The position numbers and the translations under genes were made by a program. From Actinomycetota bacterium (lineage in GTDB: Bacteria > Actinomycetota > Actinomycetes > Actinomycetales > Dermatophilaceae), in the NCBI GenBank assembly GCA_020161845.1, contig JAIUNK010000025.1, positions 1 to 63,419 of the forward strand: a stretch of 63,419 nucleotides of DNA. The letters are read 5' to 3'. Positions 44,981 through 63,419 of this stretch are shown one piece after another. A model generated the notes under the pieces. It searched no databases, was not told the origin of the DNA, and saw only the letters and a program-made list of their open reading frames with translations. Positions within the stretch are counted from its first letter, which is position 1. Each line of letters begins with the position of its first letter.

Positions 44981-45502
44981 ATGCTCATGCATCTCTTCGT
45001 GGACGAGTCCAAGGCTGGCGCGTACCTGCTCGTCGCGGCATGCGTGGAGGCGAGCACTATCGCAACTGCCAGGCATCGCCTCGATGCCTTACTGCTTCCG
45101 GGTCAGAAGAGAATCCATATGAAGACCGAGCGAAAGGAGCGCCGCGATCTGATCGCGAAGTCAGTGACGTCGATGGGGCAGCAGTGCTGTGTCCTCGACG
45201 CTGGCCGCTGCTTCCCCACCGAGCGCCAAGCGCGTGCCGCATGCCTGGAGATGCTCATTGGCCGGTATCCGAGGGCCACCACACTCAACCTCGAACGCGA
45301 CGAGTCGTTGGTCGACTTCGATCGGACCGTCCTGTTCAGGGCGACGAGGGGTCTCAGCACTCGCCCGATCTACACCCACGCCAGCGCCGCGGACGAACCG
45401 CTGCTGTCGCTGCCGGACATCGTCGCGTGGTGCTGGGCCCGTGGTGGGTCGTGGCGAGACCGGATTCGCCCGGTGGCGCAACGGATCGGTGTTGAGCCGT
45501 GA
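44981..45502 (+). CDS. DUF3800-like protein, putative RNase H-fold nuclease
   Basis: 173 aa. The N terminus MLMHLFVDESKAGAYLLVAACV carries the DES(K) acidic start of DUF3800 proteins (Asp8, Glu9). A basic middle RIHMKTERKERRDLI and a C-terminal acid Asp146 in LLSLPDIVAWCWARGGSWRDR follow, consistent with an RNase H-like active site. The family's biochemical role is not established, but members are common near defence genes and mobile elements, and conserved RNA structures have been described beside them. ATG 44987 is an alternative start two codons in. It precedes cas3 by 178 bp on the same strand. GC content dips at its promoter. Confidence 0.65.
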   Translation: MLMHLFVDESKAGAYLLVAACVEASTIATARHRLDALLLPGQKRIHMKTERKERRDLIAKSVTSMGQQCCVLDAGRCFPTERQARAACLEMLIGRYPRATTLNLERDESLVDFDRTVLFRATRGLSTRPIYTHASAADEPLLSLPDIVAWCWARGGSWRDRIRPVAQRIGVEP

Positions 45503-45680: not shown

Positions 45681-48557
45681 ATGACGGAGCACAACTGGCG
45701 GACACCGCTTGTCGTGCTCTGGGGAAAGACAGGGGACGGCGACACGTGGCTGCCGCTGTGGCAGCACTTGGAGGACGCAGCCGCCGTCGCCGGGCTGCTC
45801 TGGGACCATTGGCTGCCCGACTCGGCGAAGGACCACATCGCCGCAGCGCTGCCCGGTGGCCACGACGACGGCCGCATCCTGCTCACCTGGCTCGCCGGAG
45901 TGCATGACATCGGCAAAGCTACCCCCGCCTTCCAAATCAAGGCCGACCGCACCTCCAGACACCTGTCCGATCGCGTGCGAGACGCGGGATTCGACCTGAA
46001 CGTGCCGCTATCCGAGGCGCACCGAGCCCCGCACGGCGCCCTGAGCCACGTCCTTCTCGTGCACTGGCTCACCATCCGCTTCGGCCTCTCCGGCCGCCTC
46101 CCCCGCCGCGCCGCGCGCGCTCTCGCGGCCCTGGTCGGCGCCCACCACGGCGTCCTGCCGAGCGTCACCGACCGCCAACGCCTGGAGAACGCCACGTCCT
46201 ATCGGGGTCGCTCGCCGCTGTGGGAGGTCGCCCGCCGTGAGCTGCTTGATGGGATGGCCGAGGCCACCGGTGCGGCCAGCCGACTTCCGAGCTGGCTCGA
46301 GCGGCCGTTGCCCCCGACGGTGCAGTCCTTGCTCGCCGCCGCCGTGGTCGTGGCCGATTGGCTGGCCAGCGACGCGGCCCGTTTCCCCTATGTTGACCGC
46401 CCGTCCGGGCCACCCACCTGGGATCAGCTCGGGCTGCCCCGCCCCTGGCGGGCCTCGCAACCGCCACGCGACGCGGCGGCACTCCTGCGCGAGCGATTCC
46501 CGACCCTCGCCGGGCTGCCCGGTTATGCCCCCACCCCGATCCAACGTACGGCGGTCGAGGCGGCGTGGGCCGCGGACCGTCCACCGCTGATCCTGCTCGA
46601 AGCAGAGATGGGCAGCGGCAAGACTGAAGCGGGTCTGGCCACCGCGCAGGTCTTGGCGCACCGCTTCGGCCAGGGCGGGGTCTTCATAGCGCTACCCACG
46701 ATGGCCACCTCAGACGCCATGTTTGCCCGGGTCCGCTCGTGGATCGACCAGCTACCGGCCACCGGCGAGCACGCGGACCTCGCCCTCTTCCTCGCGCACG
46801 GCAAAGCGGGACTGAACGACGACTATCGCGGTCTCCCGCAGGACGACCAGGTCGCCGAGGTGTACGACGACGCGGCCGGTCACCGTAATGACAAGGCGCT
46901 GCGTCACGCCGTCGCGGTGGTCAACAGCTGGACGCGCGGGCGCCGTCGCGGGCTGTTGGCCCCATTCGTGGTGGGCACCATCGACCAGGTCCTCTTCGGT
47001 GCTTTGCGCAGCAAGCACCTACCGCTGCGGCATCTGGCGATCGCGGGCAAGGTGGTCGTCATCGACGAGGTCCACTCCGCCGACACCTACATGCGCGAGT
47101 ACCTGCGCTCGATCCTGGCGTGGTTGGGGGCCTATGGGACCCCGGTCGTGCTCATGTCGGCAACCCTTCCGCCCGCCCAGCGCGCTGAGCTGCTGAACGC
47201 TTATGCGCAGGGCGCGGCCCAGTGCCCCACGCCCGGGCCCACGCTGTCGACGTACGAGCTGATCGAACCCAGCGGATACCCGCGCACGATGCTGCTCGAC
47301 TCCACGCTGCGGGAGATCCCGACCGAGCAGACCTCACAGCGGCCGCGACAGGTGACCATCGAGGAACACCCCGATGAGCTGCACGACCTCGCCGCGCGGC
47401 TGCGCGAGGACCTGGTGGACGGGGGGTGCGTCGCGATCATCCGGAACACGGTGGCTCGGGCTCAGGAGACGTGGCGAGCGCTGCGGGAGGCGCTGCCCGA
47501 GGTCGAGGTAGTGCTGGCCCACAGCCGGTTCCTCGCCGTCGACCGGGCCCGGCGGGAGGCGGACCTGCGGACCCGTCTCGGGCGAACGAGCAGCGTGAGC
47601 ATCGGCACCCGTCCTCATCGGCTGATCGTCGTGGGCACGCAGGTGTTGGAGCAGTCCCTGGACATCGACGTGGACCTCATGGTGAGCGACCTGTGCCCGG
47701 TCGATCTTCTGCTGCAACGGATGGGCCGGCTGCATCGCCACCCGCGCGGGGCTGGCGAGAGTGACCGGCCGCCGCGGCTGCGCGCACCGCGGCTGCTGCT
47801 CACCGGAGCGGAGTGGAGCTCTACACCGGTCGTCGCGGTGTCCGGCTCACGGAAGGTGTATGGCGAGGCCGCGCTGCTGGCCGCAGCGGCGACCCTGCGC
47901 AGGCACGGTCTCTCGATCCGGCTGCCGGAGGACATCGCGCCGCTGGTCGACGCCGCCTACGACTCAGAGTTCACCCCTCCGACGGGATGGGACCAACGCT
48001 GGGCGGCGGCCGAAGCGGCCCAAAGCCAGCGCGATCTGCGTGCGCAGAGTCGCGCCAAGGACTTCCGCCTGAGCGGTTTCGGAGCGAGTGAACCACTCCT
48101 CAAGGGGGGTGGGCTCCTTGCCGACTGCGGCTTCTTCGACCCGGGAGATCCAGACGACAGCAACGGGGGCCGCAGCCAGGTCCGCGACAGCGAAGACAGC
48201 CTGGAGGTCATCGTCGTACGGCGCCTCGGCACGGCGATCCGGCCGATGCCCGGCGTTGGACTGCCCGACGACCTGGATCTCAACCCCAATTTCCCGCCCG
48301 AGCCGCGAATCGCCCGGGCCCTCGCCGGCTGCACCGTGCGGCTCCCGGCCTGGACCACGGTGGCCAACCTGGATGCCGTCATCGCAGCCCTCGAAGACGA
48401 CGCTGGTTTCGCGGGATGGCAACAGGACTGCCCGTGGCTGCAGGGCCAGCTCGTGCTCGCGCTCGACGAGGACGGCCATGCCCGCGTCGCCGACCTCGAC
48501 CTGTCCTATGACCCCGACGTCGGGCTCACCGTCACCACCCACCGGGAGGAATCATGA
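45681..48557 (+). CDS. cas3: CRISPR-associated helicase-nuclease Cas3 (type I-E)
   Basis: 958 aa. The N-terminal HD nuclease has His29, the His75-Asp76 pair in AGVHDIGKATPAFQ, a further GAHHGVL (155-157) and ADWLASD, all expected metal ligands. The SF2 helicase has Walker A GSGKT at 311-315, DEVH at 462-465, MSATLPPAQRAELL, LAHSRFLAVDR, and motif VI QVLEQSLDIDVDLMVSDLCPVDLLLQRMGRLHRH (in part). A C-terminal accessory domain follows. Recruited by DNA-bound Cascade, it nicks and degrades the target. ATG 45681 has GGGGAGAACAGGG upstream; it overlaps cas8e by 4 nt. It opens the cas operon. Confidence 0.95.
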   Translation: MTEHNWRTPLVVLWGKTGDGDTWLPLWQHLEDAAAVAGLLWDHWLPDSAKDHIAAALPGGHDDGRILLTWLAGVHDIGKATPAFQIKADRTSRHLSDRVRDAGFDLNVPLSEAHRAPHGALSHVLLVHWLTIRFGLSGRLPRRAARALAALVGAHHGVLPSVTDRQRLENATSYRGRSPLWEVARRELLDGMAEATGAASRLPSWLERPLPPTVQSLLAAAVVVADWLASDAARFPYVDRPSGPPTWDQLGLPRPWRASQPPRDAAALLRERFPTLAGLPGYAPTPIQRTAVEAAWAADRPPLILLEAEMGSGKTEAGLATAQVLAHRFGQGGVFIALPTMATSDAMFARVRSWIDQLPATGEHADLALFLAHGKAGLNDDYRGLPQDDQVAEVYDDAAGHRNDKALRHAVAVVNSWTRGRRRGLLAPFVVGTIDQVLFGALRSKHLPLRHLAIAGKVVVIDEVHSADTYMREYLRSILAWLGAYGTPVVLMSATLPPAQRAELLNAYAQGAAQCPTPGPTLSTYELIEPSGYPRTMLLDSTLREIPTEQTSQRPRQVTIEEHPDELHDLAARLREDLVDGGCVAIIRNTVARAQETWRALREALPEVEVVLAHSRFLAVDRARREADLRTRLGRTSSVSIGTRPHRLIVVGTQVLEQSLDIDVDLMVSDLCPVDLLLQRMGRLHRHPRGAGESDRPPRLRAPRLLLTGAEWSSTPVVAVSGSRKVYGEAALLAAAATLRRHGLSIRLPEDIAPLVDAAYDSEFTPPTGWDQRWAAAEAAQSQRDLRAQSRAKDFRLSGFGASEPLLKGGGLLADCGFFDPGDPDDSNGGRSQVRDSEDSLEVIVVRRLGTAIRPMPGVGLPDDLDLNPNFPPEPRIARALAGCTVRLPAWTTVANLDAVIAALEDDAGFAGWQQDCPWLQGQLVLALDEDGHARVADLDLSYDPDVGLTVTTHREES

Positions 48558-50278
48558 TCACGAGAACACCGAGTCGCTCCCCCGCCCCCGCGGACGAGGG
48601 ACCGCCGCGGACGTCGTACGACCTCCTCACCCAACCGTGGCTGCTGCTCCGTGACCCGGGCGCCGACTCAGGGGTCCGGGAGGTCGGGCTGCTGGAAGCG
48701 TTCGAGCGGGCCCATGAGGTCACCGGTTTGGCCGGTGAGATCCCCACCCAGGAGGCCGCCTGCCTGCGGCTGATGCTGGCGGTGCTCTATCGGGCACTCG
48801 ATGGGCCCGGGGACGCGGTGGCGGCGTGGGACCAGCTCTGGCAGGCGGGTCGGCTGCCGATCGAACGGATCCGGGACTACCTGACGCCGTACGCCGATCG
48901 CTTCGACCTGCTTCACCCGCAGACCCCGTTCTTCCAGGTCGCCGACCTGCGCACGGCCAGCGATGGCAGCTCCGGTATCCACAAACTGATCGCCGACTAT
49001 CCAGGTCGCCAGGGACGTCGCCACTTCACCACTCGTGACCTCACCAGGGATACGAGAATCTCGTTTGGGGAGGCGGCACGCTGGCTGGTCCATGCCCATG
49101 CCTACGACACCTCAGGAACCAAAACCGGTGTTGTTGGTGGGGGGCGGGATCGCGGAGGTCCAATCAGTGCCAAGGGCACAGGCTTTGCGGGAGCTTTGGG
49201 GCTGCTGCTCGCTGAAGGCGACAATCTGGCTGCGACGCTTCTGCTGAATCTAGTTCTCACCATGGACACTACGACTGACCGTGGTCCGTGGGAGCATGAA
49301 CACCCTGGCCCTGCCGTGGACCCCCGTCGAACTCAGCCTTTGGGACCAGCCGACGCCGCTACTTGGCAAGCGCGAAGGATACGGATAATCCACGACGGGC
49401 TCACCGCAGTTGACGCGATCTTGTCCAGCGGCGACGCTGTCGACCCCCAAAACTGCCGCTCTGTGGAGCCGAACTCCTCGTGGCGCTATAGCGAGCTCCA
49501 GAGCAAGAAGCTCGCTGGAACGTCGTACATGCCCCTGAAGCACTCCCCGACACGCTCGTTGTGGCGAGGGCTCTCCGCGACACTGGGAGAAGGCTCGACA
49601 CCGGCCGCAACGAAGCACGGTGTGAGCGCCTTTAGGGTCGCCGAGCTGTTGGAGTGGCTGACGAAGCTCCGCCAGGAAGGTGTACTCCACCCAGCTCGGC
49701 CGGTTCGATTGCGAGCCATTGGCATGAGTTACGGCCCGAAGGGCAGTGGCCAGTCTTCCATTGTGGAGGAGCTGATCAACGACCGCATGGCTATCCCACT
49801 GGCTGTACTGACAGAGCCTGAGGTGAAGCGATGCGCCACAGCGGCTGTCGAGCGGGCCGACGCCGCGGTGCGGGAGCTGGGTCGCCTTGCGGCGAATCTC
49901 TCCGATGCCGCGGGCCGACATCTGCTGCCCGGGATGGACGACGGGGCCCGCGAGGAAGCCGTCAGGACGGCCTTCGCCCAGCTGGATCGCCACTACCGAC
50001 GCTGGGTCCGCACGCTGTCCGACCCGAGCGTGATCGACGCCCACGACATGGCCTGGCAGCAGACCCTCCGGCAGGAGCTGACCGAGCTCGCCTCCGATCT
50101 GGTGGTCGCGGCGGGCCTGCCGGCGCAAGTGGGCCGTGAGGTCGGCGGCCGCTACCTCAACGCGCCCATCGCGGAGAACTACTTCCACGCGGCGCTGCGC
50201 AAGACCCTCCCCAGGGCCTACCCCGACCATTCCGCCATCCCCGAACGGCAGCCCGACCAGCACCAGGAGGACCAGTGA
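48554..50278 (+). CDS. cas8e: Cascade large subunit Cas8e (Cse1/CasA)
   Basis: 574 aa. It recognises the PAM and recruits Cas3 in type I-E Cascade. The family-typical start is SYDLLTQPWLLLRDPG..., followed by VGLLEAFERAHEV, then PFFQVADLRTAS, the glycine-rich loop KTGVVGGGRDRGGPI, and a helical C-terminal bundle (VERADAAVRELGRLAANLSD onward). The longer N-terminal lead (SRSPAPADEGPPRT) is unstructured. The segment encoding about residues 190-290 has noticeably weaker GC bias at third positions. ATG 48554 overlaps the cas3 stop (ATGA), and the end overlaps cse2 (GTGA). Confidence 0.93.
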   Translation: MITRTPSRSPAPADEGPPRTSYDLLTQPWLLLRDPGADSGVREVGLLEAFERAHEVTGLAGEIPTQEAACLRLMLAVLYRALDGPGDAVAAWDQLWQAGRLPIERIRDYLTPYADRFDLLHPQTPFFQVADLRTASDGSSGIHKLIADYPGRQGRRHFTTRDLTRDTRISFGEAARWLVHAHAYDTSGTKTGVVGGGRDRGGPISAKGTGFAGALGLLLAEGDNLAATLLLNLVLTMDTTTDRGPWEHEHPGPAVDPRRTQPLGPADAATWQARRIRIIHDGLTAVDAILSSGDAVDPQNCRSVEPNSSWRYSELQSKKLAGTSYMPLKHSPTRSLWRGLSATLGEGSTPAATKHGVSAFRVAELLEWLTKLRQEGVLHPARPVRLRAIGMSYGPKGSGQSSIVEELINDRMAIPLAVLTEPEVKRCATAAVERADAAVRELGRLAANLSDAAGRHLLPGMDDGAREEAVRTAFAQLDRHYRRWVRTLSDPSVIDAHDMAWQQTLRQELTELASDLVVAAGLPAQVGREVGGRYLNAPIAENYFHAALRKTLPRAYPDHSAIPERQPDQHQEDQ

Positions 50279-51072
50279 GCACCGTCCCTGACATCAGCGG
50301 CGGCACCAAGACCACCGAACCGTCCGGAACCAGCAGCACCACCGGCACCAGCGGCTCGAGCGAGGCTTCGGCCCGGCCGAAGGACCTCATGGCGCGAACC
50401 TTGCACCGCCTGCAGCGCGAATATGCGCTCGAAGGGTCGCAGCCCACCCCGTGGGCCGCCGCCACCATGGCCGCCCTCCGCACGGCCGGTCCGGGTCAGG
50501 TCGACGCGCACCCAGCGACGTGGCCGGTTCTCTACGGGACCTTCCCCCAGGGCTATGGCTATGGGCAGGAGGAGGTGAGCTCGCGAGAGCGCGCGGCGCA
50601 CGCCACGCTCGTGCTCTACGCCGTGCATCAGGCCTCGCAGCCCAAGGGCATGTATGTCCCAGGAATCTCCCTGGGCCGAGCGCTCGGCCGACTCCCCGAT
50701 GCCAAGGAGGCCAAGAGCCCGGTGCTGCGGCGGTTTACCTCCCTGATCAGCGCCACGACCTTCGAGTCGACGATGCAACACCTCCGGGGCCTGGTGACCC
50801 TGCTGCGCCGCGAACACCTCCCGGTGGATTATGTCAGCCTCTACGCGGATCTCATCGGGCTTCAGGACGCTAAGCAGGCCCCTGCCGTACGCCGGCGTTG
50901 GGGCCGGGACTATTTCGGCAGCCGCACCCCGGAGCGGGAGAAGGCAGCGGCCGCGAGACCCGATGCGGCCCCCAGCGACAGCACCGCCGGCGCAACGGGC
51001 AACACCAACGGCAGCGGCGGCCTTGGCGCGGACCAGCACTCCACCTCAACCACATTTGACCTGCAGCACTGA
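50275..51072 (+). CDS. cse2: Cascade small subunit Cse2 (CasB/Cas11e)
   Basis: 265 aa, longer than the 160-200 usual for the family. The folded helical core (about 40-210) starts KDLMARTLHRLQREYALEG and includes AAHATLVLYAVHQAS, SLGRALGRLPDAKEAKSPVLRRFTSLISA (in part), LRGLVTLLRREHLPVDYVSLYADL, and VRRRWGRDYF. Both ends carry low-complexity Ser/Thr/Gly/Ala tails (1-38 and about 215-265). Cse2 lies along the belly of Cascade and stabilises crRNA and the displaced strand. GTG start 50275 overlaps cas8e by 4 nt; the gap to cas7e is 18 bp. Confidence 0.92.
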   Translation: MSTVPDISGGTKTTEPSGTSSTTGTSGSSEASARPKDLMARTLHRLQREYALEGSQPTPWAAATMAALRTAGPGQVDAHPATWPVLYGTFPQGYGYGQEEVSSRERAAHATLVLYAVHQASQPKGMYVPGISLGRALGRLPDAKEAKSPVLRRFTSLISATTFESTMQHLRGLVTLLRREHLPVDYVSLYADLIGLQDAKQAPAVRRRWGRDYFGSRTPEREKAAAARPDAAPSDSTAGATGNTNGSGGLGADQHSTSTTFDLQH

Positions 51073-51090: not shown

Positions 51091-52233
51091 ATGGCTTCGA
51101 CGTACATCGACATCCACGTCCTGCAGTCCGTCCCCCCGAGCAACCTCAACCGCGACGACACCGGCACGCCGAAGACGGCGTTCTACGGCGGGGTGGAGCG
51201 GGCCCGGGTGAGCAGCCAGGCGTGGAAGCGCGCCACCCGGCGTCACTTCGCCGAGCAGGTCGAGGCGCGCCAGCTCACCGCCGACCAGCTCGCGGTGCGC
51301 ACCAAGCGCGCCGTGGCCCAGGTCGCGGAGCGACTGGTCGCGACGTACGGCATGGAGAAGGCCGCCGCCAGCGACCGCGCCGTCGCGGCGCTCAAGGCCC
51401 TCGGCTTCAAGCTCGAGTCGGGGCGCGCCAAGAAGGACGAGGAGGGCTCTGCGGAGGCCAACCTGACCGAGTACCTGACCTTCTTCAGCAACAGCCAGCT
51501 CGATGAGTTCGCGCGGATCGCCGCGGCGGCGGGCGAGGGCGCGTCGCTGGACAAGAAGTCCCTCATGGACGCGGCGCAGGCCCATCACGGCATCGAAGTC
51601 GCCCTCTTCGGCCGAATGGTCGCCGACGACAAGCAGCTCAACGTCGACGCCGCCTGCCAGGTCGCGCACGCGATCTCGACCCACCAGGCCACTGCTGCGC
51701 AGGACTACTACACAGCGGTGGACGACAAGTCGCCCGCAGACAACGCAGGCGCCGGGATGCTCGGCACGATCGAATACACCTCGGCCACCTTCTACCGCTA
51801 CGCCACGGTTGGATTCGCCCAGCTCACCGACAATCTCGGCTCCCGAGAGGCGGCCCTGGCGGCGACCAAGGCCTTCATCGACGCGTTTGTGCGCAGCATG
51901 CCCACCGGCAAGCAGAACACGTTCGCCAACCGCACTCCCGTAGACGCGGTGGTCGTGCAGGTCCGCACGGCGCCGGTCAACCTCGTGGGTGCGTTCGAGG
52001 AGGCCGTCACGTCCGACAGCGGATACGTCGAGAAGTCCGCATCCGCCCTGGCGGATTACGCCCACAATGTCGCCGACACGTACGCCGATACGCCGCTGGC
52101 GTCGTACGTCGTGCGGGTCTCCCCCAAGGCCGCCTCGCTGGACCGACTCGGCGTCGCGACCACCCTGGCCGAGCTGCCCGACGCCGTCGTGGCCGCGATC
52201 CCGGACCCGGCGCAGACCGGTGACGCCTCATGA
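51091..52233 (+). CDS. cas7e: Cascade backbone subunit Cas7e (Cse4/CasC)
   Basis: 380 aa. The RAMP protein that polymerises along the crRNA spacer. The family start is YIDIHVLQSVPPSNLNRDDTG, followed by KTAFYGGVERARVSSQAWKRATRRHF (in part), both near the crRNA-binding face. GIEVALFGRMVADDKQLNVDAACQVAHAISTH (in part) and the C-terminal RTAPVNLVGAFEEAV are typical. ATG 51091 has GGAGAG 9-14 nt upstream. It overlaps cas5e by 4 nt. Confidence 0.95.
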   Translation: MASTYIDIHVLQSVPPSNLNRDDTGTPKTAFYGGVERARVSSQAWKRATRRHFAEQVEARQLTADQLAVRTKRAVAQVAERLVATYGMEKAAASDRAVAALKALGFKLESGRAKKDEEGSAEANLTEYLTFFSNSQLDEFARIAAAAGEGASLDKKSLMDAAQAHHGIEVALFGRMVADDKQLNVDAACQVAHAISTHQATAAQDYYTAVDDKSPADNAGAGMLGTIEYTSATFYRYATVGFAQLTDNLGSREAALAATKAFIDAFVRSMPTGKQNTFANRTPVDAVVVQVRTAPVNLVGAFEEAVTSDSGYVEKSASALADYAHNVADTYADTPLASYVVRVSPKAASLDRLGVATTLAELPDAVVAAIPDPAQTGDAS

Positions 52234-52958
52234 CGGTACTGGCGCTGCGGCTCGCCGGGCCGCTCCAGTCGTGGGGTGACGCGAGCCGCTTCACGCGGCG
52301 CCTGACCCGCAGCGAACCGACCAAGAGCGGGGTGTTGGGCCTGCTCGCGGCGGCCCAGGGCCGGCGTCGTACCGAGCCCATCGAGGATCTGGCGGGCCTG
52401 TGCTTCGGCGTCCGGGTCGACCAGCCCGGCCGGCTCACCCGCGACTTTCACACGGCGATCCGCTGGCAGGAGAAGAACCGCGCAGGTGAGTCGCCGTCGA
52501 TGCCGCTGTCCTACCGTTACTACCTGGCGGACGCCGTTTTCGTGGCGGGAGTCGAGGGGGATCGGGCGCTGCTCGAGGGCCTCGTCGACTCGCTCAAGGA
52601 GCCGCGTTTCCCGCTCTATCTCGGGCGCCGGTCCTGCCCCGTGACGGGAAAACTCAGCCTGGGCCTTCACGAGGGGAAGCTCGAGGACGTCTTGCGGCGA
52701 CTGCCGTGGGAGGCGTCCGCCTGGCATCAGCGGCAACAGGGCCGCACGGTGGACCTGCCGCTCTTTCTGGACGCGGCGGCAGCCACACCGTCACCGGACG
52801 CGGTGGCCGAGCTCGTGCGGGACGCGCCGGTGTCCTTCAACCCGGTACGGCGGGAGTACGGCTGGCGCGACGTTGTCCGCGCGACGCCGGTGACAGTCGA
52901 CAACCCTGACGGTCGGGCGGACGTGATGGATTTCCTGGCCGCGCTCGGAGGTGCCTGA
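52230..52958 (+). CDS. cas5e: Cascade subunit Cas5e (CasD)
   Basis: 242 aa RAMP protein that caps the crRNA 5' handle. Typical start VLALRLAGPLQSWGDASRFTRRLTRSEPTKSGVLGLLAAAQG (in part), then VRVDQPGRLTRDFHTAIRW, LSYRYYLADAVFVAGVEGD and LYLGRRSCPVTGKLSLGLHEG. The C-terminal VSFNPVRREYGWRDVVR is usual for the I-E form. ATG 52230 overlaps the cas7e stop by 4 nt, and its TGA shares one base with the cas6e ATG. Confidence 0.95.
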   Translation: MTVLALRLAGPLQSWGDASRFTRRLTRSEPTKSGVLGLLAAAQGRRRTEPIEDLAGLCFGVRVDQPGRLTRDFHTAIRWQEKNRAGESPSMPLSYRYYLADAVFVAGVEGDRALLEGLVDSLKEPRFPLYLGRRSCPVTGKLSLGLHEGKLEDVLRRLPWEASAWHQRQQGRTVDLPLFLDAAAATPSPDAVAELVRDAPVSFNPVRREYGWRDVVRATPVTVDNPDGRADVMDFLAALGGA

Positions 52959-53614
52959 TGTTTCTGACGCGCTTTCAGATCAACACCACTCGCCGGGGGG
53001 CCCGCTTCCTCCTGGCCTCCCAGCAGCGGATGCACGCCGCGGTCCTGGCCGGCTTCCCCTCGGGCGATGACCGGGGGCGGACTCTGTGGCGGGTTGATCA
53101 GGGTTCGCCCCGCACGGACCTCTTCATCGTCAGCCCTGATCGGCCCGACCTGACCCACCTGGTGGAGCAAGCCGGCTGGCCGACGACTGCGACCTGGGAC
53201 ACTGCGGACTACCAACCCTTGCTGGACCGGTTGGAGCAGGGGCAGCGGTGGGCGTTTCGGCTGACGGCCAACCCTGTGCGCAGCCTGCCGGCAGGCCCCG
53301 GTCAGCGGGGGCAGGTGAAGGCTCACGTGTCGGTCGCGCAGCAGCAGGATTGGCTGATGAGGCGGGCGGAACGGTGTGGCTTCACGATCCCGGACGGCCC
53401 GCACGGCGGTCCGCAGGTCGTCGTGAAGGAACGCCGTACGGCGCGCTTCCAACGCTCCCACGCGGAGCGAGGCCGGGAGGTGACGGTGGTGATGGCGACG
53501 TACGACGGAGTCCTGGAGGTCACCGACCCGGCGGCCTTGCGAGCGGTGCTGACCGGAGGGGTCGGCCGCGCCAAGGCCTACGGGTGCGGACTCTTGACGT
53601 TGGCGCGCGTGTGA
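52958..53614 (+). CDS. cas6e: CRISPR RNA endoribonuclease Cas6e (Cse3/CasE)
   Basis: 218 aa. It cleaves the array transcript at the base of each repeat hairpin and stays bound to the 3' stem. The expected start is FLTRFQINTTRRGARFLLASQQRMHAAVLAGFP (in part), with the catalytic histidine His26. The C-terminal glycine-rich loop GGVGRAKAYGCGLLTLAR is characteristic of RAMP nucleases. The substrate stem would be CCCCGC/GCGGGG of the repeat, cut to leave an ATGATCC-type 5' handle. Overlaps cas5e by one base; 12 bp to cas1. Confidence 0.95.
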   Translation: MFLTRFQINTTRRGARFLLASQQRMHAAVLAGFPSGDDRGRTLWRVDQGSPRTDLFIVSPDRPDLTHLVEQAGWPTTATWDTADYQPLLDRLEQGQRWAFRLTANPVRSLPAGPGQRGQVKAHVSVAQQQDWLMRRAERCGFTIPDGPHGGPQVVVKERRTARFQRSHAERGREVTVVMATYDGVLEVTDPAALRAVLTGGVGRAKAYGCGLLTLARV

Positions 53615-53626
53615 GCGGGGTGGCGG

Positions 53627-54583
53627 ATGAAGCCCATCCCTGGCATGCCTCCGCCCGAGTTGAGGCAACTGGTGCGAGCTCAAGATCGGGTGAGCTTCAT
53701 CTATGTGGAGCGTTGCACGGTCCACCGTGACGGCAACGCCATCACCGCCACGGACGAACGAGGCGTGGTGCACATCCCCTCGGCCACGCTGGGGGCACTG
53801 CTTCTCGGCCCCGGCACACGAGTGACGCATCAGGCGATGATGCTGCTGGCGGAGAGCGGCTCGACGTCGGTGTGGGTCGGCGAACGGGGCGTGCGTTATT
53901 ACGCACACGGCCGCTCGCTGGCGCATTCCTCACGGCTGCTGGAGGCGCAGGCCATCGCCGTCACGAACCAGTCGTCCCGCCTGCGGGTCGCCCGCGCCAT
54001 GTATGCCCTGCGCTTCCCCGGCGAGGACGTCTCCGGCCTGACCATGCAGCAGTTGCGCGGCCGGGAGGGCGCGCGGGTGCGGCGCACCTATCGGGAGGCG
54101 GCGGCGGCGTACGGCGTCGAGTGGAACCGGCGCGACTATCGGCCGGACGACTTCGACGCCTCCGACACCGTCAACAAGGCGCTCTCGGCGGCGACGACCT
54201 GCCTCTACGGGATCACGCACGCCGTGATCGTGGCGTTGGGCTGCTCGCCGGGTCTGGGGTTCGTGCACACCGGGCACGATCGTTCCTTCGTCTACGACAT
54301 CGCCGACCTCTACAAGGCCGAGGTGGCCATCCCGGTCGCATTCGAGGTGGCGTCGCGTGAGCCGGAGGACGTCGCGGGAGACACGCGGCGGGCGGTGCGG
54401 GATGCGGTCTACGACGGCAAGATCCTGCAACGCTGCTCCCGCGATATTCGGGTGCTGCTCCTTCCCGACGAACCTGAGGACGTCGAGACGAGCTGGGACG
54501 TCGTGCAGCTCTGGGACGGCGGGGACCGCAAGGTGGCCGGCGGGACGTCGTACGGCGACGACGACTGGGACGTGCCGTGGTAG
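53627..54583 (+). CDS. cas1e: CRISPR integrase Cas1 (type I-E)
   Basis: 318 aa. Integrase subunit that inserts new spacers at the leader end. Metal-binding residues of the family are present: Glu147 ([10 protein letters not shown]), His214 (GFVHTGHDRS) and Asp224/Asp227 (FVYDIADLYK), matching E. coli Glu141, His208 and Asp218/221. The N-terminal beta domain ends before SRLLEAQAIAV. The C-terminal tail DDDWDVPW is acidic. ATG 53627 with GGGG upstream. Intact, so adaptation is probably active. Overlaps cas2 by 7 nt. Confidence 0.96.
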   Translation: MKPIPGMPPPELRQLVRAQDRVSFIYVERCTVHRDGNAITATDERGVVHIPSATLGALLLGPGTRVTHQAMMLLAESGSTSVWVGERGVRYYAHGRSLAHSSRLLEAQAIAVTNQSSRLRVARAMYALRFPGEDVSGLTMQQLRGREGARVRRTYREAAAAYGVEWNRRDYRPDDFDASDTVNKALSAATTCLYGITHAVIVALGCSPGLGFVHTGHDRSFVYDIADLYKAEVAIPVAFEVASREPEDVAGDTRRAVRDAVYDGKILQRCSRDIRVLLLPDEPEDVETSWDVVQLWDGGDRKVAGGTSYGDDDWDVPW

Positions 54584-54942
54584 TGCTCGTCCTGACGGCC
54601 TGCCCCGCCGGGCTGCGTGGCTACCTCACCAGGTGGTTGGTGGAGATCAGCCCCGGGGTCTTCGTCGGCTACGTGACGTCGAGGGTGCGCGACCTGCTGT
54701 GGCAGGAGGTGGTCGACCTCGCCAAGGACGGCCGGGCGCTGCTGGTGTACGGCGCGCGTAGCGAGCAACGCCTGGCCTTCCGCGTGCATCGTCACGATTG
54801 GGTGCCGACAGACTTCGACGGGGTTCAACTGATGCTGCGCCCGACCGAGTCCACCGACGGGGCAGGTGGGATGCGGCATGGATGGAGCAAGGCCAGTCGG
54901 TACCGGCGCGCTCAGCGATCAAAACCGAAGCCAATGACGTAA
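54577..54942 (+). CDS. cas2e: CRISPR adaptation protein Cas2 (type I-E)
   Basis: 121 aa, structural partner of Cas1. Start GTG 54577: MVVLVLTACPAGLRGYLTRWLVEISPGVFVG (in part), then the usual I-E motifs VRDLLWQEVVDLAKDGRALLVY, LAFRVHRHDWVPTDFDGVQLM. It carries a basic C-terminal extension (about 90-121, GWSKASRYRRAQRSKPKPMT). The extension's last codons lie in DNA that also looks like array leader (AATGACGTAAAGTCACG). It ends only 30 bp before the first repeat, so the leader and this gene end probably overlap. Confidence 0.94.
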   Translation: MVVLVLTACPAGLRGYLTRWLVEISPGVFVGYVTSRVRDLLWQEVVDLAKDGRALLVYGARSEQRLAFRVHRHDWVPTDFDGVQLMLRPTESTDGAGGMRHGWSKASRYRRAQRSKPKPMT

Positions 54943-54972
54943 AGTCACGTGCGTCACTGCAGGTCAGCAAGT
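54943..54972 (+). promoter_or_regulatory. CRISPR leader (short, abutting cas2)
   Basis: 30 bp from the cas2 stop to the first repeat, ending GCAGGTCAGCAAGT. With the AT-rich end of cas2 it forms TGACGTAAAGTCACGTGCGTCA (54934-54955, given in part), holding an inverted TGACG/CGTCA pair and a CACGTG palindrome. The repeat orientation (GGGGATGATCC end rightward) makes this the leader side. The promoter must lie in the cas2 coding end or transcription must read through from cas2. Confidence 0.65.
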
Positions 54973-56280
54973 GCATTCCCCGCACACGCGGGGATGATCC
55001 AGAAGCGGGCAGCGCTGGCGGCATTCACCGCGCATTCCCCGCACACGCGGGGATGATCCGGCCGCCAAGGATGCGGCGACCGAGGCCGTGGCGCATTCCC
55101 CGCACACGCGGGGATGATCCCTCCTCGAACGCGGGCGTGGCGGCGGTGTCGCAGCATTCCCCGCACACGCGGGGATGATCCGGACTCCTCTCTAGTCCGC
55201 TGGAGTACGGCACGGCATTCCCCGCACACGCGGGGATGATCCCTGCGCCTGCAATCCCTCGATATTGAACGCGTAGCATTCCCCGCACACGCGGGGATGA
55301 TCCGCCCAGCGTATGAAGCGGATCGAAAGCGAGCGTGCATTCCCCGCACACGCGGGGATGATCCCGGCCTGGCTGTAGACGCGTTCCGCTTCGCACCGCA
55401 TTCCCCGCACACGCGGGGATGATCCGTCCGAGATGCTCGACGTCATGGGCAAGACCGAGCATTCCCCGCACACGCGGGGATGATCCGAAGGCGCCGGTCC
55501 AGCGGGTCGCGTGCGGTAGGCATTCCCCGCACACGCGGGGATGATCCACCGGGCCAGGAACCCCTTCAGCCGCTCCAGCGAGCATTCCCCGCACACGCGG
55601 GGATGATCCTCCGAGCACGAGGGCACCGATCGCGCCCGTCGCGCATTCCCCGCACACGCGGGGATGATCCCCGGCACGGCCGGCGCCTCCGCCGTGCTCG
55701 TCGGCATTCCCCGCACACGCGGGGATGATCCCCCGGCATACCGAGACCGAGCCGGCTTCCGAGAGCATTCCCCGCACACGCGGGGATGATCCTTATCCCC
55801 TTGTCGGGTGCGTCGTGGCTGGCTTGCATTCCCCGCACACGCGGGGATGATCCCGGTCGTGGCGGCATGAGCGGGACCGGCATCAGGCATTCCCCGCACA
55901 CGCGGGGATGATCCGGCGAGGCGGGGGATGGCGGGGCTTGGGCTGGCGCATTCCCCGCACACGCGGGGATGATCCCGCGAGTTCCGCGACCACTGGGGGG
56001 CGTGATGAGCATTCCCCGCACACGCGGGGATGATCCCCTGTCATCGATCTTCGCCAGGCGGCACCGCAAGCATTCCCCGCACACGCGGGGATGATCCGTT
56101 GCTGCCCGGTCGTGCCCCAGCTCGGCGATCGCATTCCCCGCACACGCGGGGATGATCCCGCGGCGAGGACGACGACGTGGGCGAGGCCGTAGCATTCCCC
56201 GCACACGCGGGGATGATCCCTCAGAGCGCTCGCGCTGCGCGTGCTCGAACAGGCATTCCCCGCACACGCGGGGATGATCC

Positions 56281-56313
56281 GTGTTGCGTCACGTTCACGG
56301 CGACCCGGGCGTC
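56281..56313 (+). repeat. Spacer 22, identical to spacer 107 (61466-61498)
   Basis: The 33-nt spacer beginning GTGTTGCGTCACG and ending GACCCGGGCGTC recurs exactly 85 spacers later. Flanking spacers differ, so no multi-unit block was duplicated. Confidence 0.95.
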
Positions 56314-57989
56314 GCATTCCCCGCACACGCGGGGATGATCCCTACGTGCCCATCGAGACCGACCCAGCGACTGGGCATTCCCCGCACACGCGGGGATGAT
56401 CCGGCGGCGGCGCCCATGCTGATCCGCTGACCGGAGCATTCCCCGCACACGCGGGGATGATCCGTCGAACGGGGTGATGTCGCTTGGCACTGGTAGGCAT
56501 TCCCCGCACACGCGGGGATGATCCCTGGTGGGCGCGTCGCTCGCGGGGACGACGACGGCATTCCCCGCACACGCGGGGATGATCCCGCCGTGCGCGAGGG
56601 CGGTACGGCATGACCAACGCATTCCCCGCACACGCGGGGATGATCCGACTTCCTTCACGCCGTCGTCGGAGAAGTAGCCGCATTCCCCGCACACGCGGGG
56701 ATGATCCGGCCGGTTCGACCAGAGCGTCTCGACGCGGGATGCATTCCCCGCACACGCGGGGATGATCCCGTCTCGACGATGACGTCGAGCAGGTTCTTCA
56801 AGCATTCCCCGCACACGCGGGGATGATCCGATGTTTTGCAGCGCCTGCGTGGGGGTGAAGCCGCATTCCCCGCACACGCGGGGATGATCCCTCGACGAAC
56901 GACCTCACCACCCGGCAGGCGTCAGCATTCCCCGCACACGCGGGGATGATCCCCGAGTTCGTCGCCGTAGAGGATCGCCGCAGCGGCATTCCCCGCACAC
57001 GCGGGGATGATCCGTCCAGGTAATCGTGCACTTCATAGGTGTCGTCGCATTCCCCGCACACGCGGGGATGATCCGTGCCCGATCAGCATGGTCCGCGTCT
57101 TGCCGTCGCATTCCCCGCACACGCGGGGATGATCCCGAGAGCCCGGGGGTTTTCGCGGCCCCGGCGAAGCATTCCCCGCACACGCGGGGATGATCCCTGG
57201 TAGAGCACCACGTCGGCGACCGGATCCGGGCATTCCCCGCACACGCGGGGATGATCCCGGGCGCAACGCCGGGCGCGGCGGTCATGTCTCGCATTCCCCG
57301 CACACGCGGGGATGATCCGACCGGCCTCGACGGCGACCAGATCATCGTCCGGCATTCCCCGCACACGCGGGGATGATCCGTTCACATCCGGGGCAGCGGT
57401 AGTCCCGGATGAGCATTCCCCGCACACGCGGGGATGATCCGCCTGTGCCTCGGCGAGGTTCAGCTCGTCGACCGCATTCCCCGCACACGCGGGGATGATC
57501 CCGGCGTCAGGACCGTCTCACCCGGGTTGCTCCAGCATTCCCCGCACACGCGGGGATGATCCGCCGCCGATGGTGAGGGATTGCGGGTCGGCGTTGCATT
57601 CCCCGCACACGCGGGGATGATCCGACCGCGGCCCGTGACGACAACTGGGGTATCGCGCATTCCCCGCACACGCGGGGATGATCCGGGCCTCGGGTTCCCG
57701 GACTTCCTGCGGTACACCCATTCCCCGCACACGCGGGGATGATCCGACCTCCACGTTGATCGGCTTCGTCTCGATCAAGCATTCCCCGCACACGCGGGGA
57801 TGATCCCGGGCCGACCATCTGCATGCCGTCCTTGGCGAGGCATTCCCCGCACACGCGGGGATGATCCCACCGGGGCGTACTCCTCGGCGTACGACTCGGC
57901 GCATTCCCCGCACACGCGGGGATGATCCGGTCGGGTAAGCGACTATTGCCGCCCTGCTGGCGCATTCCCCGCACACGCGGGGATGATCC

Positions 57990-58022
57990 GGCGGTCGGGT
58001 TCGATGACCTGCTGGACCGCCT
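57990..58022 (+). repeat. Spacer 50, identical to spacer 72 (59332-59364)
   Basis: The 33-nt spacer beginning GGCGGTCGGGTTCG and ending GCTGGACCGCCT recurs exactly 22 spacers later, again with different neighbours. Confidence 0.95.
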
Positions 58023-61000
58023 GCATTCCCCGCACACGCGGGGATGATCCGTCGATCAAGGACGAATGGACCGACGAGGACGCGCATTCCCCGCACACGC
58101 GGGGATGATCCGCACGCCCTGTCGGTCACGATCAACATGCACAAGCATTCCCCGCACACGCGGGGATGATCCGACGATCGCCTCGGGGACGGTCGGCACG
58201 TTCGCGCATTCCCCGCACACGCGGGGATGATCCCCAGTCCCAGTCGCACGACACGCGCGTGATTGAGCATTCCCCGCACACGCGGGGATGATCCCGGTAC
58301 GTCGCCGAGGCGTGCGGGATCCCCATCGCATTCCCCGCACACGCGGGGATGATCCGGACCCCCTCACGCCACCCATCAGCGCACCATGGCATTCCCCGCA
58401 CACGCGGGGATGATCCCGCGACGCACCCGCCTGATCGGTCACCGTGAGGGCATTCCCCGCACACGCGGGGATGATCCCGGGGCTCCCATGACGGGCAGGT
58501 TATCTCGACGGCATTCCCCGCACACGCGGGGATGATCCCACCACCCCGGTGTCGTTGTTCATCGCGGAGGCGCATTCCCCGCACACGCGGGGATGATCCC
58601 ACGGTGCGGCCCGCGTTCCGGGTGATCATGAGCATTCCCCGCACACGCGGGGATGATCCGTTCACGCAGAATGATGCTGGCGAATGGTATGCGCATTCCC
58701 CGCACACGCGGGGATGATCCGGACCCCACCGACCCCGCCGCCGCCTTGACGCCGCATTCCCCGCACACGCGGGGATGATCCATCTGGCGGGCTGGCGGGG
58801 GGCAGCCGGGGACCGCATTCCCCGCACACGCGGGGATGATCCATCATCCTGCCCAACCCGATAGGGCTGGGGTCCGCATTCCCCGCACACGCGGGGATGA
58901 TCCCGTGGTGGTCTCGCCGGTGGCCGCTGAGGTGTCGCATTCCCCGCACACGCGGGGATGATCCGTGTCAGCGGTCGCCGCCGACGTGCTGACCGCCGCA
59001 TTCCCCGCACACGCGGGGATGATCCCTGGGCCGTGCAGATGCAGCGCGCGGCGACCGAGCATTCCCCGCACACGCGGGGATGATCCTCGGGGTACACGCT
59101 CAAAGGCACCGGCTTCGGCGGCATTCCCCGCACACGCGGGGATGATCCGACATCGACACCACCACCCCGGCCGGGCGGTGGGCATTCCCCGCACACGCGG
59201 GGATGATCCGCAGCCCACCGACGTTGCCAAGCGCCGCGACAGGCATTCCCCGCACACGCGGGGATGATCCGAACTGCGCCTCATGGACCGTGACCGGCCG
59301 ACGGCATTCCCCGCACACGCGGGGATGATCCGGCGGTCGGGTTCGATGACCTGCTGGACCGCCTGCATTCCCCGCACACGCGGGGATGATCCACGGTCTC
59401 GCCGGACCCGCGATCCACCCTGGGGCATTCCCCGCACACGCGGGGATGATCCCCTGAACTCGGCCCACCAGAGCCGCGACCCCATGCATTCCCCGCACAC
59501 GCGGGGATGATCCCCGGCGACCGGGTTGGGGACGCCGCTCCACCAGGCATTCCCCGCACACGCGGGGATGATCCGGACTATATTCGACCCCTTCAATTCT
59601 CCGCACGGCATTCCCCGCACACGCGGGGATGATCCCGATCAAGAGCGAGCTGGACCGGATCGTGGAAGGCATTCCCCGCACACGCGGGGATGATCCGCAG
59701 GACGGATCCTGGGCGATCAACCTCGGCGGGCATTCCCCGCACACGCGGGGATGATCCCGTCACCAGCACGATCGCCGCCAACCTGTTCAAGCATTCCCCG
59801 CACACGCGGGGATGATCCGGCCGTGACGGACCCGGATCCGGGCGAGGTCGTGCATTCCCCGCACACGCGGGGATGATCCCTTTGCCGTGGACAGCTCGCT
59901 TCGTTGGCGGGAGCATTCCCCGCACACGCGGGGATGATCCCTGGTCGACGAGTGGGCCGACCGCCTTCAGTACGCATTCCCCGCACACGCGGGGATGATC
60001 CGTCGAGACGCTGGCGAAACTCAAGCAGCTCATTGCATTCCCCGCACACGCGGGGATGATCCGGTCGTCGAAGGCCCTTCACCGAAGGGCCTCGCGCATT
60101 CCCCGCACACGCGGGGATGATCCGAATAGTGCGCTGTCGGCGCCAGTTTTCGTCATGCATTCCCCGCACACGCGGGGATGATCCGGTGTGCCGATCTTGG
60201 AGGGTCCGCTATGGGGCGCATTCCCCGCACACGCGGGGGTGATCCCCCGACACAGCCCAGGCCCATCGCCAGCGGAGCGCATTCCCCGCACACGCGGGGA
60301 TGATCCGACCTGGATCGCCCTAGAGGCCGTACGGCAGGCGCATTCCCCGCACACGCGGGGATGATCCGGAACGTTGAGCGTCGTGGACGTCATGCTGGCG
60401 GCATTCCCCGCACACGCGGGGATGATCCCGTGCTGCGGGAGCGGGGCGAACTGGCGTGGCAGCATTCCCCGCACACGCGGGGATGATCCCCGACCCGGCA
60501 TCGACTGCGGCGATCCAGTCGGGCATTCCCCGCACACGCGGGGATGATCCCAACCCCGGTGCCCGCAATCAGGATGCTCATGCGCATTCCCCGCACACGC
60601 GGGGATGATCCCAGGCCACCGGGCTACACGCGAACGAGAAGGCCGCATTCCCCGCACACGCGGGGATGATCCGTGCCACCCGTTGGCCTCGTATGCGCGG
60701 ATCACGCATTCCCCGCACACGCGGGGATGATCCGCTGTCGATCTGCTCGTCCTCCAGGCCCTTCACGCATTCCCCGCACACGCGGGGATGATCCTGGCCT
60801 GGTAGTACGCCTCGTAGCTGTCGGACAGCATTCCCCGCACACGCGGGGATGATCCCGTCTCGAACGACAAGCTCAACCAGGCGAACACGCATTCCCCGCA
60901 CACGCGGGGATGATCCGACTTTGCCTGGGCGATGGCCCAGGGCATCGCCGCATTCCCCGCACACGCGGGGATGATCCCGTCCGCGTCGGCTGTCGGTTAC

Positions 61001-63419
61001 GCGGTCTACTGCATTCCCCGCACACGCGGGGATGATCCTCGGCGTGATATCACTCACCGCAGCCTTGCGGGGCATTCCCCGCACACGCGGGGATGATCCT
61101 GAGGCGCTGCCGCAGGGTGCCATCGTCAACAGGCATTCCCCGCACACGCGGGGATGATCCGCGCAAGGGCACCGCCGACCCGGGCCGCTGGTGGCATTCC
61201 CCGCACACGCGGGGATGATCCTACGTCGCTGACCACCCCGACGCCATCGAGCACGCATTCCCCGCACACGCGGGGATGATCCGTCCTCGCCGGGACGGTC
61301 GCTGACACGCGGAAGGCATTCCCCGCACACGCGGGGATGATCCCTCACGACGTCGCCTCGTCGATGAGGTCCGCCAGCATTCCCCGCACACGCGGGGATG
61401 ATCCGGCGGCGCCTCCGTGGCGAATCCCGACCCCGCCGCATTCCCCGCACACGCGGGGATGATCCGTGTTGCGTCACGTTCACGGCGACCCGGGCGTCGC
61501 ATTCCCCGCACACGCGGGGATGATCCGCCCGAAGCGCCGCACCGACAGCCGATGCCGCAGCATTCCCCGCACACGCGGGGATGATCCCTGCTTGAACGCC
61601 GACTGAGCGGTCGTCAAACCGCATTCCCCGCACACGCGGGGATGATCCCGTGTACTCGGCGTCGTTGCGCAGGAACGTGAACGCATTCCCCGCACACGCG
61701 GGGATGATCCCAGCACGTCATCAACCCGACCATCGGCAGCGAGGCATTCCCCGCACACGCGGGGATGATCCCCGTGGGTGGTCCTCAGGTCCGGGTGCAC
61801 GCTCGCATTCCCCGCACACGCGGGGATGATCCCTTCGCAGGGTCGCCGACATTCTTCAGCGCATCGCATTCCCCGCACACGCGGGGATGATCCCGGCCAC
61901 GACAACCCCGTATCGGGAATCCGGTGGCATTCCCCGCACACGCGGGGATGATCCGACGACGGTGCCGGCCGCGACGACTGGCGGCGGGCATTCCCCGCAC
62001 ACGCGGGGATGATCCGATCTCCGAACCTGGCAACGGTGACAATGTGTTCGCATTCCCCGCACACGCGGGGATGATCCTGTGACGGCACCCTCGCGGTCCC
62101 GACCGGCGTCGCATTCCCCGCACACGCGGGGATGATCCGCCCTCGCCGAAGCGGTCGGCGAACCCGACACGGCATTCCCCGCACACGCGGGGATGATCCC
62201 GGCGTGTCGTCGCTCACGTTCGCGGTGGACAAGCATTCCCCGCACACGCGGGGATGATCCGGTGACCAGGGTCTTGGCCGGCGGGCAGGGCGAGCATTCC
62301 CCGCACACGCGGGGATGATCCGCACCTGGATCAGCGGCGTCGCCGCCTGGATGAGCATTCCCCGCACACGCGGGGATGATCCGTCCCGCATCTCGGACGT
62401 CACATCCGACGAGATGCATTCCCCGCACACGCGGGGATGATCCCTTCGATGGGGCGAGCCTCGGAAGGGCCTGGCTGCATTCCCCGCACACGCGGGGATG
62501 ATCCGGCCCGCACGCTGGCGGGCCTGAGAGTTCGGGGGCATTCCCCGCACACGCGGGGATGATCCCGTTGGAGGAGTTGCCTCGGGCGTACGCGGTCAGC
62601 ATTCCCCGCACACGCGGGGATGATCCCTCGGTCATCGCGCCATCTCCCAATCGTCTTCGGCATTCCCCGCACACGCGGGGATGATCCGGACACGGCGTTC
62701 GGTGCTCCGGGCGTCAACGCGCATTCCCCGCACACGCGGGGATGATCCGTTCCTACCGAGTTCAGACATGGCCCGGGCGTTGCATTCCCCGCACACGCGG
62801 GGATGATCCCGGGCAGACGTCGTCGTCGATGGCTTTGGTCATGCATTCCCCGCACACGCGGGGATGATCCGGACGCCGACGCGATCGACGATCCGGGCGC
62901 CAGGCATTCCCCGCACACGCGGGGATGATCCCCCGGAACGCCACGTCGATGGCATACGCAGCCCGCATTCCCCGCACACGCGGGGATGATCCGGCCGAGG
63001 CCGCACGGTTCTACCTCGAAGAGCCGCATTCCCCGCACACGCGGGGATGATCCTCAGCAGACGAAGGGTGATTCCGCGGCCGGATGGCATTCCCCGCACA
63101 CGCGGGGATGATCCCTGGCGAGAACCGGCTCGAAGCCATCCGTCAGGCGCATTCCCCGCACACGCGGGGATGATCCGGTCGCCGGCTGATGTCTGGCGCG
63201 GTCAAGCTTGCATTCCCCGCACACGCGGGGATGATCCTATGAACATGAGTCAGAACTCTCGCATGCCAGTGCATTCCCCGCACACGCGGGGATGATCCCA
63301 CAGCCCCCGCATGGATTCCGTTGCTGTGGGTCGCATTCCCCGCACACGCGGGGATGATCCGTGCAAGGGGCAACCGTGACCGCCCGCAGGATTGCATTCC
63401 CCGCACACGCGGGGATGAT

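Follow-up and report, generated by a model that had tools for sequence, protein, structure and literature searches.

The cas operon, leader and array

The window (the whole stretch of DNA analysed, 63419 bp) is an entire contig, C6, of a 4.39-Mb draft genome in 82 contigs. Eight cas genes lie on its forward strand in the standard order of type I-E systems, each matching its own Pfam family and devoid of internal stop codons. The first, cas3 (45681–48557), encodes an HD nuclease-helicase of 958 aa that carries a Cas3_HD domain (5e-51) and the Cas3 C-terminal domains and matches PDB 4q2c over residues 5–952. It is followed by cse1/cas8e (48554–50278, 574 aa; PF09481, 8e-97), cse2/cas11 (50275–51072, 265 aa; PF09485, 1e-30), cas7e (51091–52233, 380 aa; PF09344, 6e-115), cas5e (52230–52958, 242 aa; PF09704, 8e-47) and cas6e (52958–53614, 218 aa; PF08798, 1e-67), the last of which encodes a crRNA endoribonuclease matching PDB 1wj9 over residues 1–216. 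The operon ends with the integrase gene cas1 (53627–54583, 318 aa; PF01867; PDB 8hi1, 7e-110 over residues 8–311) and a cas2 of the CT1978 type (54577–54942, 121 aa; PF09707, 3e-30), whose stop codon lies 30 bp ahead of the first repeat. Cas1, Cas3 and Cas6e match their solved relatives across nearly their full length. A frame of 173 aa without any Pfam match (44981–45502) separates a PcrA-type helicase gene from cas3; among 80 related loci, it recurs only in the same-genus locus L043.

A box of 13 bases, CAGGTCAGCAAGT, directly abuts repeat 1 (54960–54972, forward strand). Related boxes precede the repeat in 35 of 63 cas2-linked arrays (the window counted), compared with 1/63 in control stretches taken 300 nt further upstream at the same loci. 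A second, distal box, sought with a loose pattern about 50 bp upstream, was found in 36/63 loci and 1/63 controls. These patterns were drawn up after the sequences had been viewed, and the scan took a repeat other than the first in a few loci. In the window, the candidate for this distal leader element is a weak match to a AAAGTGAA-like box (54921–54930, forward strand) inside the 3' end of cas2; such a leader-like box can fall within cas2. The proximal box at 54960–54972 is leader-like and can be regarded as a putative leader element adjoining the first repeat.

The CRISPR array (54973–63419, forward strand, leader end on the left) begins with 138 full repeats of 28 bp, GCATTCCCCGCACACGCGGGGATGATCC, that extend from 54973 to 63360 at a spacing of about 61 bp. 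All but two of them (136) are exact, and the two variants each carry a single change, one at the first base (57718–57745) and the other an A to G at repeat position 22 (60218–60245), both on the forward strand. The contig stops inside repeat 139 (63394–63419, forward strand), of which 26 of the 28 bases are present. Of the 138 spacers, 137 lie between full repeats and one ahead of the cut repeat; 127 of these 137 are 33 nt long and the remainder 31, 32 or 34. This format fits type I-E, which combines palindromic repeats of 28–29 bp with spacers of about 32–33 bp. With up to 7 mismatches allowed, the opposite strand of the window gave no copy of the repeat. A chance model is unneeded for 136 identical 28-mers spaced about 61 bp apart. 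Many long open frames within 54647–63038 resemble translations of the repeat (PRVRGM, HPRVCGEC, IIPACAGNA) and should stay unannotated as proteins.

The first-pass annotation had described 139 repeats, 138 spacers and two variant repeats in an array that runs off the window, downstream of a complete type I-E cas operon. The counts are exact (138 full repeats and one of 26/28 bases), the window ends where contig C6 ends, and the operon consists of eight intact, Pfam-matched frames in order. Judged from its sequence, this is a canonical CRISPR-Cas system of type I-E in an actinobacterium resembling Austwickia.

Probable continuation of the array on a second contig

A search of the whole assembly for the repeat (up to 3 mismatches) returned 138 forward and 5 reverse copies. 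The forward copies are those of C6 and the reverse ones all lie on another contig, C50, so that the genome-wide count is fully explained by these two contigs. Read in the direction of the array, C50 consists of about 127 bases of a multi-copy element, then GGGATGATCC, five spacers and five repeats, and then other genes. Four of these five old-end repeats have the same sequence as on C6, and the last one is altered at its 3' end, which reads GATGAGCC. The element end, which reads ...CCCCTG directly ahead of GGGATGATCC, has 7 matches in the genome, including copies on C49 (100% over bases 1–127), C59 (96%) and C73 (89%). The 8 bases that follow it on C50 are identical to the last 8 bases of C6, i.e. 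to the end of the truncated repeat 139.

Insertion of elements of the ISAs1 family duplicates 8–10 bp of the target. The 8 bp shared by the end of C6 and the C50 junction are what such a target duplication would leave. Read inward, the single element end seen is CAGGGGCAGTTC and starts with CAGGG. According to the part of PMC11946415 consulted, the inverted repeats of ISAs1 also start with CAGGG, and its direct repeat is 10 bp; the 8 bp seen here fit this value only if the present copy made 8 or if C6 ends 2 bp short. The copy on C73 includes a piece matching the DDE_Tnp_1-associated domain (PF13808, 3e-6, below the Pfam cut-off) and a second piece at 0.14, both being fragments only; in this copy (L132, 179–545), the similarity to the transposase N-terminus is spread across two reading frames. 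No opposite end of the element was recognised at up to 3 mismatches; there is one distant match on C32, and no duplication was found around it. When plasmids were searched with the C50 end, all matches were of 60–80% identity and did not identify the element. Taken together, we infer that the gap between C6 and C50 is an ISAs1-like insertion that splits a repeat. If the gap holds this element alone, the total array would comprise 144 repeats and 143 spacers. No contig bridges the gap and C6 contains no bases of the element; extra units within the gap are possible.

The organisation of a relative bears on the same junction. The closest locus among the 80 related loci kept is that of Austwickia sp. 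TVS 96-490-7B (NZ_JAHPZL010000003.1), whose Cas1 is 83% identical; it was taken as the locus of genome G002 (G002:C24). All parts of the locus are found there on a single contig, where genes with counterparts at 36.7–44.8 kb of C6 are followed by the cas genes, then by the 100-repeat array and finally by genes with counterparts on C50, in descending order from 163 to 151 kb. A first, smaller synteny test had matched 1 of 6 C50 proteins to this genome; in the wider test, 22 of 197 frames of at least 150 aa were matched, some of them being overlapping frames of one gene. For about 8 kb of the relative past its first matching gene beyond the array, no partner was found. The two loci share collinear flanks, 28-bp repeats at 61-bp spacing, a near-identical leader box and arrays of at least 100 repeats, but the repeat of the relative differs at 4 of 28 bases and its array is unsplit. 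No spacer in common was found between the two arrays. Two of the three same-genus genomes (G001 and G003) gave no match at up to 3 mismatches to the present repeat, which was the only repeat sought.

The five repeats of C50 could also belong to a separate second array, the array of C6 then going on for an unknown and possibly much greater length. Such an arrangement would agree with the unbridged gap and with the I-E repeats that flank cas1 on both sides in several of the 80 related loci. It is nevertheless quite improbable, as both sides are collinear with the single locus of the relative, C6 and C50 explain the whole genome-wide repeat count, the last repeat on C50 is altered, the eight Cas proteins have no match in the 35 kb of C50 tested and the two contig ends have in common 8 bp such as an insertion would leave. 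The collinearity with Austwickia sp. TVS 96-490-7B and the lack of Cas matches in these 35 kb make it very probable that C6 and C50 belong to one locus, with C50 as its far flank. It had been proposed from the window alone that the true size of the array is larger: the array does exceed the window, but the gain would be just the five spacers of C50, so that it would end only a few units beyond the window, an outcome that the first-pass annotation itself had named as refuting its reading, provided that the gap is an insertion only. A draft contig boundary can thus make a nearly complete array appear open-ended. In the same way, draft genomes of Xanthomonas citri (PMC6889575, in the part consulted) have an array split into contigs by an insertion sequence within a repeat, although the element belongs to the IS21 family and the arrays are much shorter than here.

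Taken as a whole, the locus is with high probability a canonical type I-E locus whose array continues past C6, where an ISAs1-like insertion interrupts one of its repeats, and gains five further spacers on C50 before it ends there in an altered repeat. In type I-E systems, Cas1-Cas2 acquires spacers at the leader end, Cas6e cuts the transcript of the array and Cascade together with Cas3 degrades matching DNA. In the present array, Cas1-Cas2 would likewise insert new spacers next to the leader, each time duplicating the first repeat, and this copying would keep the repeats uniform; Cas6e would cut the transcript, and Cascade with Cas3 would degrade the DNA that matches the spacers. The five oldest spacers, which lie beyond the insertion, may yield little transcript or none.

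Array size and uniformity of the repeats

The first-pass annotation had called the array very large, type I-E arrays being commonly tens of units long; that it is exceptional is not supported. In an order-wide draw of 198 genomes, most had no match to the I-E-type repeat; 44 matched the pattern and 23 had at least 10 repeats. Among the 22 of these other than the present genome, 7 have at least 100 repeats, with a maximum of 160, compared with 143 here; these counts are per genome, use one fixed I-E-type pattern that misses repeats outside it and rest on repeats without reference to cas genes. Arrays close to the cas1 genes of 80 related loci have a median of 25.5 repeats, 7 of 80 have at least 100, one exceeds the present window and 8 have none; 19 of the 82 rows of this count (window and L130 included) touch the edge of the fetched stretch, and for Austwickia sp. 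TVS 96-490-7B the counter recovered 97 of 100 repeats, which implies a slight undercount. Passages of two papers (PMC7145573, PMC8047081) put the typical bacterial array below 50 spacers and the longest at 587; this longest one, in Haliangium ochraceum DSM 14365, is likewise a single long array, about four times the present one. The present array therefore belongs to the upper tail for I-E carriers of its order and is no outlier. It adds one more well-resolved large I-E array to an order in which such lengths recur, and is no anomaly.

A misbuilt assembly, in which the array would have been collapsed or inflated, is conceivable in a draft of 82 contigs. It is barely credible here, given that the order of the units is fixed by the 139 of 143 spacers that occur only once and that the relative independently holds its 100-repeat array within a contig of 728 kb. 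The array is real, large and probably active; despite its length, it is of an ordinary kind.

The near-perfect repeats had also been read as an argument for recent growth or homogenisation. Other arrays of the panel are about as uniform, with identical repeats in 69/69 cases in L075, 50/50 in L108 and 115/118 in L103, versus 136/138 here (wider count). Each acquisition copies the leader-proximal repeat, which by itself predicts uniform repeats. Since leader-proximal copying predicts the uniformity and other arrays match it, the near-identity of the repeats does not point specifically to recent growth or to homogenisation, and that argument is not supported. Some observations do fit recent rapid growth or recombinational homogenisation rather than plain copying: 136 of 138 repeats are identical, two pairs of identical spacers indicate that duplication or re-acquisition occurs, and a block duplication is visible in the array of Austwickia sp. 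TVS 96-490-7B. This explanation is unlikely, as the comparable uniformity of the other arrays stands against it, the single change in each of the two variant repeats stands alone and has not spread, and the array of the relative has the pattern predicted by copying at the leader, its 68 leader-most repeats being of one form and most of its older repeats of another. Besides this change of repeat form, that array contains a block in which spacers are duplicated, as well as one spacer of 64 nt whose two halves are nearly identical (L130, 10200–10900).

Spacers, their candidate targets and a codon-phase signal

The 143 spacers represent 141 different sequences. Spacer 22 (56281–56313) is identical to spacer 107 (61466–61498), and spacer 50 (57990–58022) to spacer 72 (59332–59364), all on the forward strand. 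The members of each pair are distant and have unlike neighbours. Because of these unlike neighbours, the pairs could possibly result from re-acquisition or from a duplicated block whose remainder was lost.

The first-pass annotation had proposed searching the spacers against phages, plasmids and the rest of this genome. A phage search with the 138 C6 spacers, over the whole array and with E values up to 1, returned few matches, all of them weak: spacer 33 matched RecT-like genes, spacer 96 a helicase gene and spacer 35 a hypothetical gene, each at 29/33 with E of 0.03–0.4 and without a shuffled control. Spacers 20 and 123 were dropped as phage matches (7 and 12 mismatches over their full length). 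Phage records matching in many repeated pieces, plus MT838183, were discounted, with no check of each one, because they probably match the repeat; four records (JX006077, MT835722, MT521991 and ON392164) match the array in several pieces, which may point to CRISPR-like repeats in phages. Seven spacer sequences (33, 22=107, 50=72, 96, 35, 34 and 5), with four free positions each, matched no place in viral contigs. Against plasmids, 32 of the 143 spacers gave three weak records. Against 119 genomes of the family, 37 of the 143 gave only weak matches beyond their own array (best E 1.5e-4, three candidates being scored per genome). Nothing convincing was found for self-targeting in the fetched stretches of this genome.

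The composition of the spacers carries a signal of its own. Over the 141 distinct spacers, every third position counted from the first (1, 4, 7...) has a G+C content of 0.78, versus 0.61 and 0.65 in the other two phases; with position 1 left out, the contrast was reached by none of 5000 random-phase controls. Each third of the array shows this 3-bp rhythm, which is weaker in the array of Austwickia sp. TVS 96-490-7B (p 0.01). It keeps a fixed register with the repeat (54973–63419 and L031, 15700–16020). The rhythm suggests that most spacers derive from coding DNA. When about 70 kb of this genome, genes and non-genes alike, were sampled after each dinucleotide, the correlation with the profile of the 33–34 nt spacers exceeded 0.8 only after AT, TT, AA and TA. 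As an A/T-only dinucleotide ahead of the protospacer best reproduces the phase pattern, these data suggest a protospacer-adjacent motif (PAM) in which two A/T bases precede a G or C. Known I-E motifs include AAG and ATG, with which such a motif is compatible. Among the four flanks available at the 29/33 phage matches, one (AA, before the target of spacer 35) fits the A/T dinucleotide and three do not.

A search of the literature on PAM inference from codon phase retrieved nothing evidently on the topic, as judged from titles and the start of abstracts, which does not in itself show newness. The proposal that, in a G+C-rich host, the spacers of a long array preserve the motif by which they were acquired, in a form that could be read without any matching phage, is put forward tentatively, its chances being a little short of even. 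If it proved to be general, the PAMs of uncharacterised systems would be inferable from their arrays alone.
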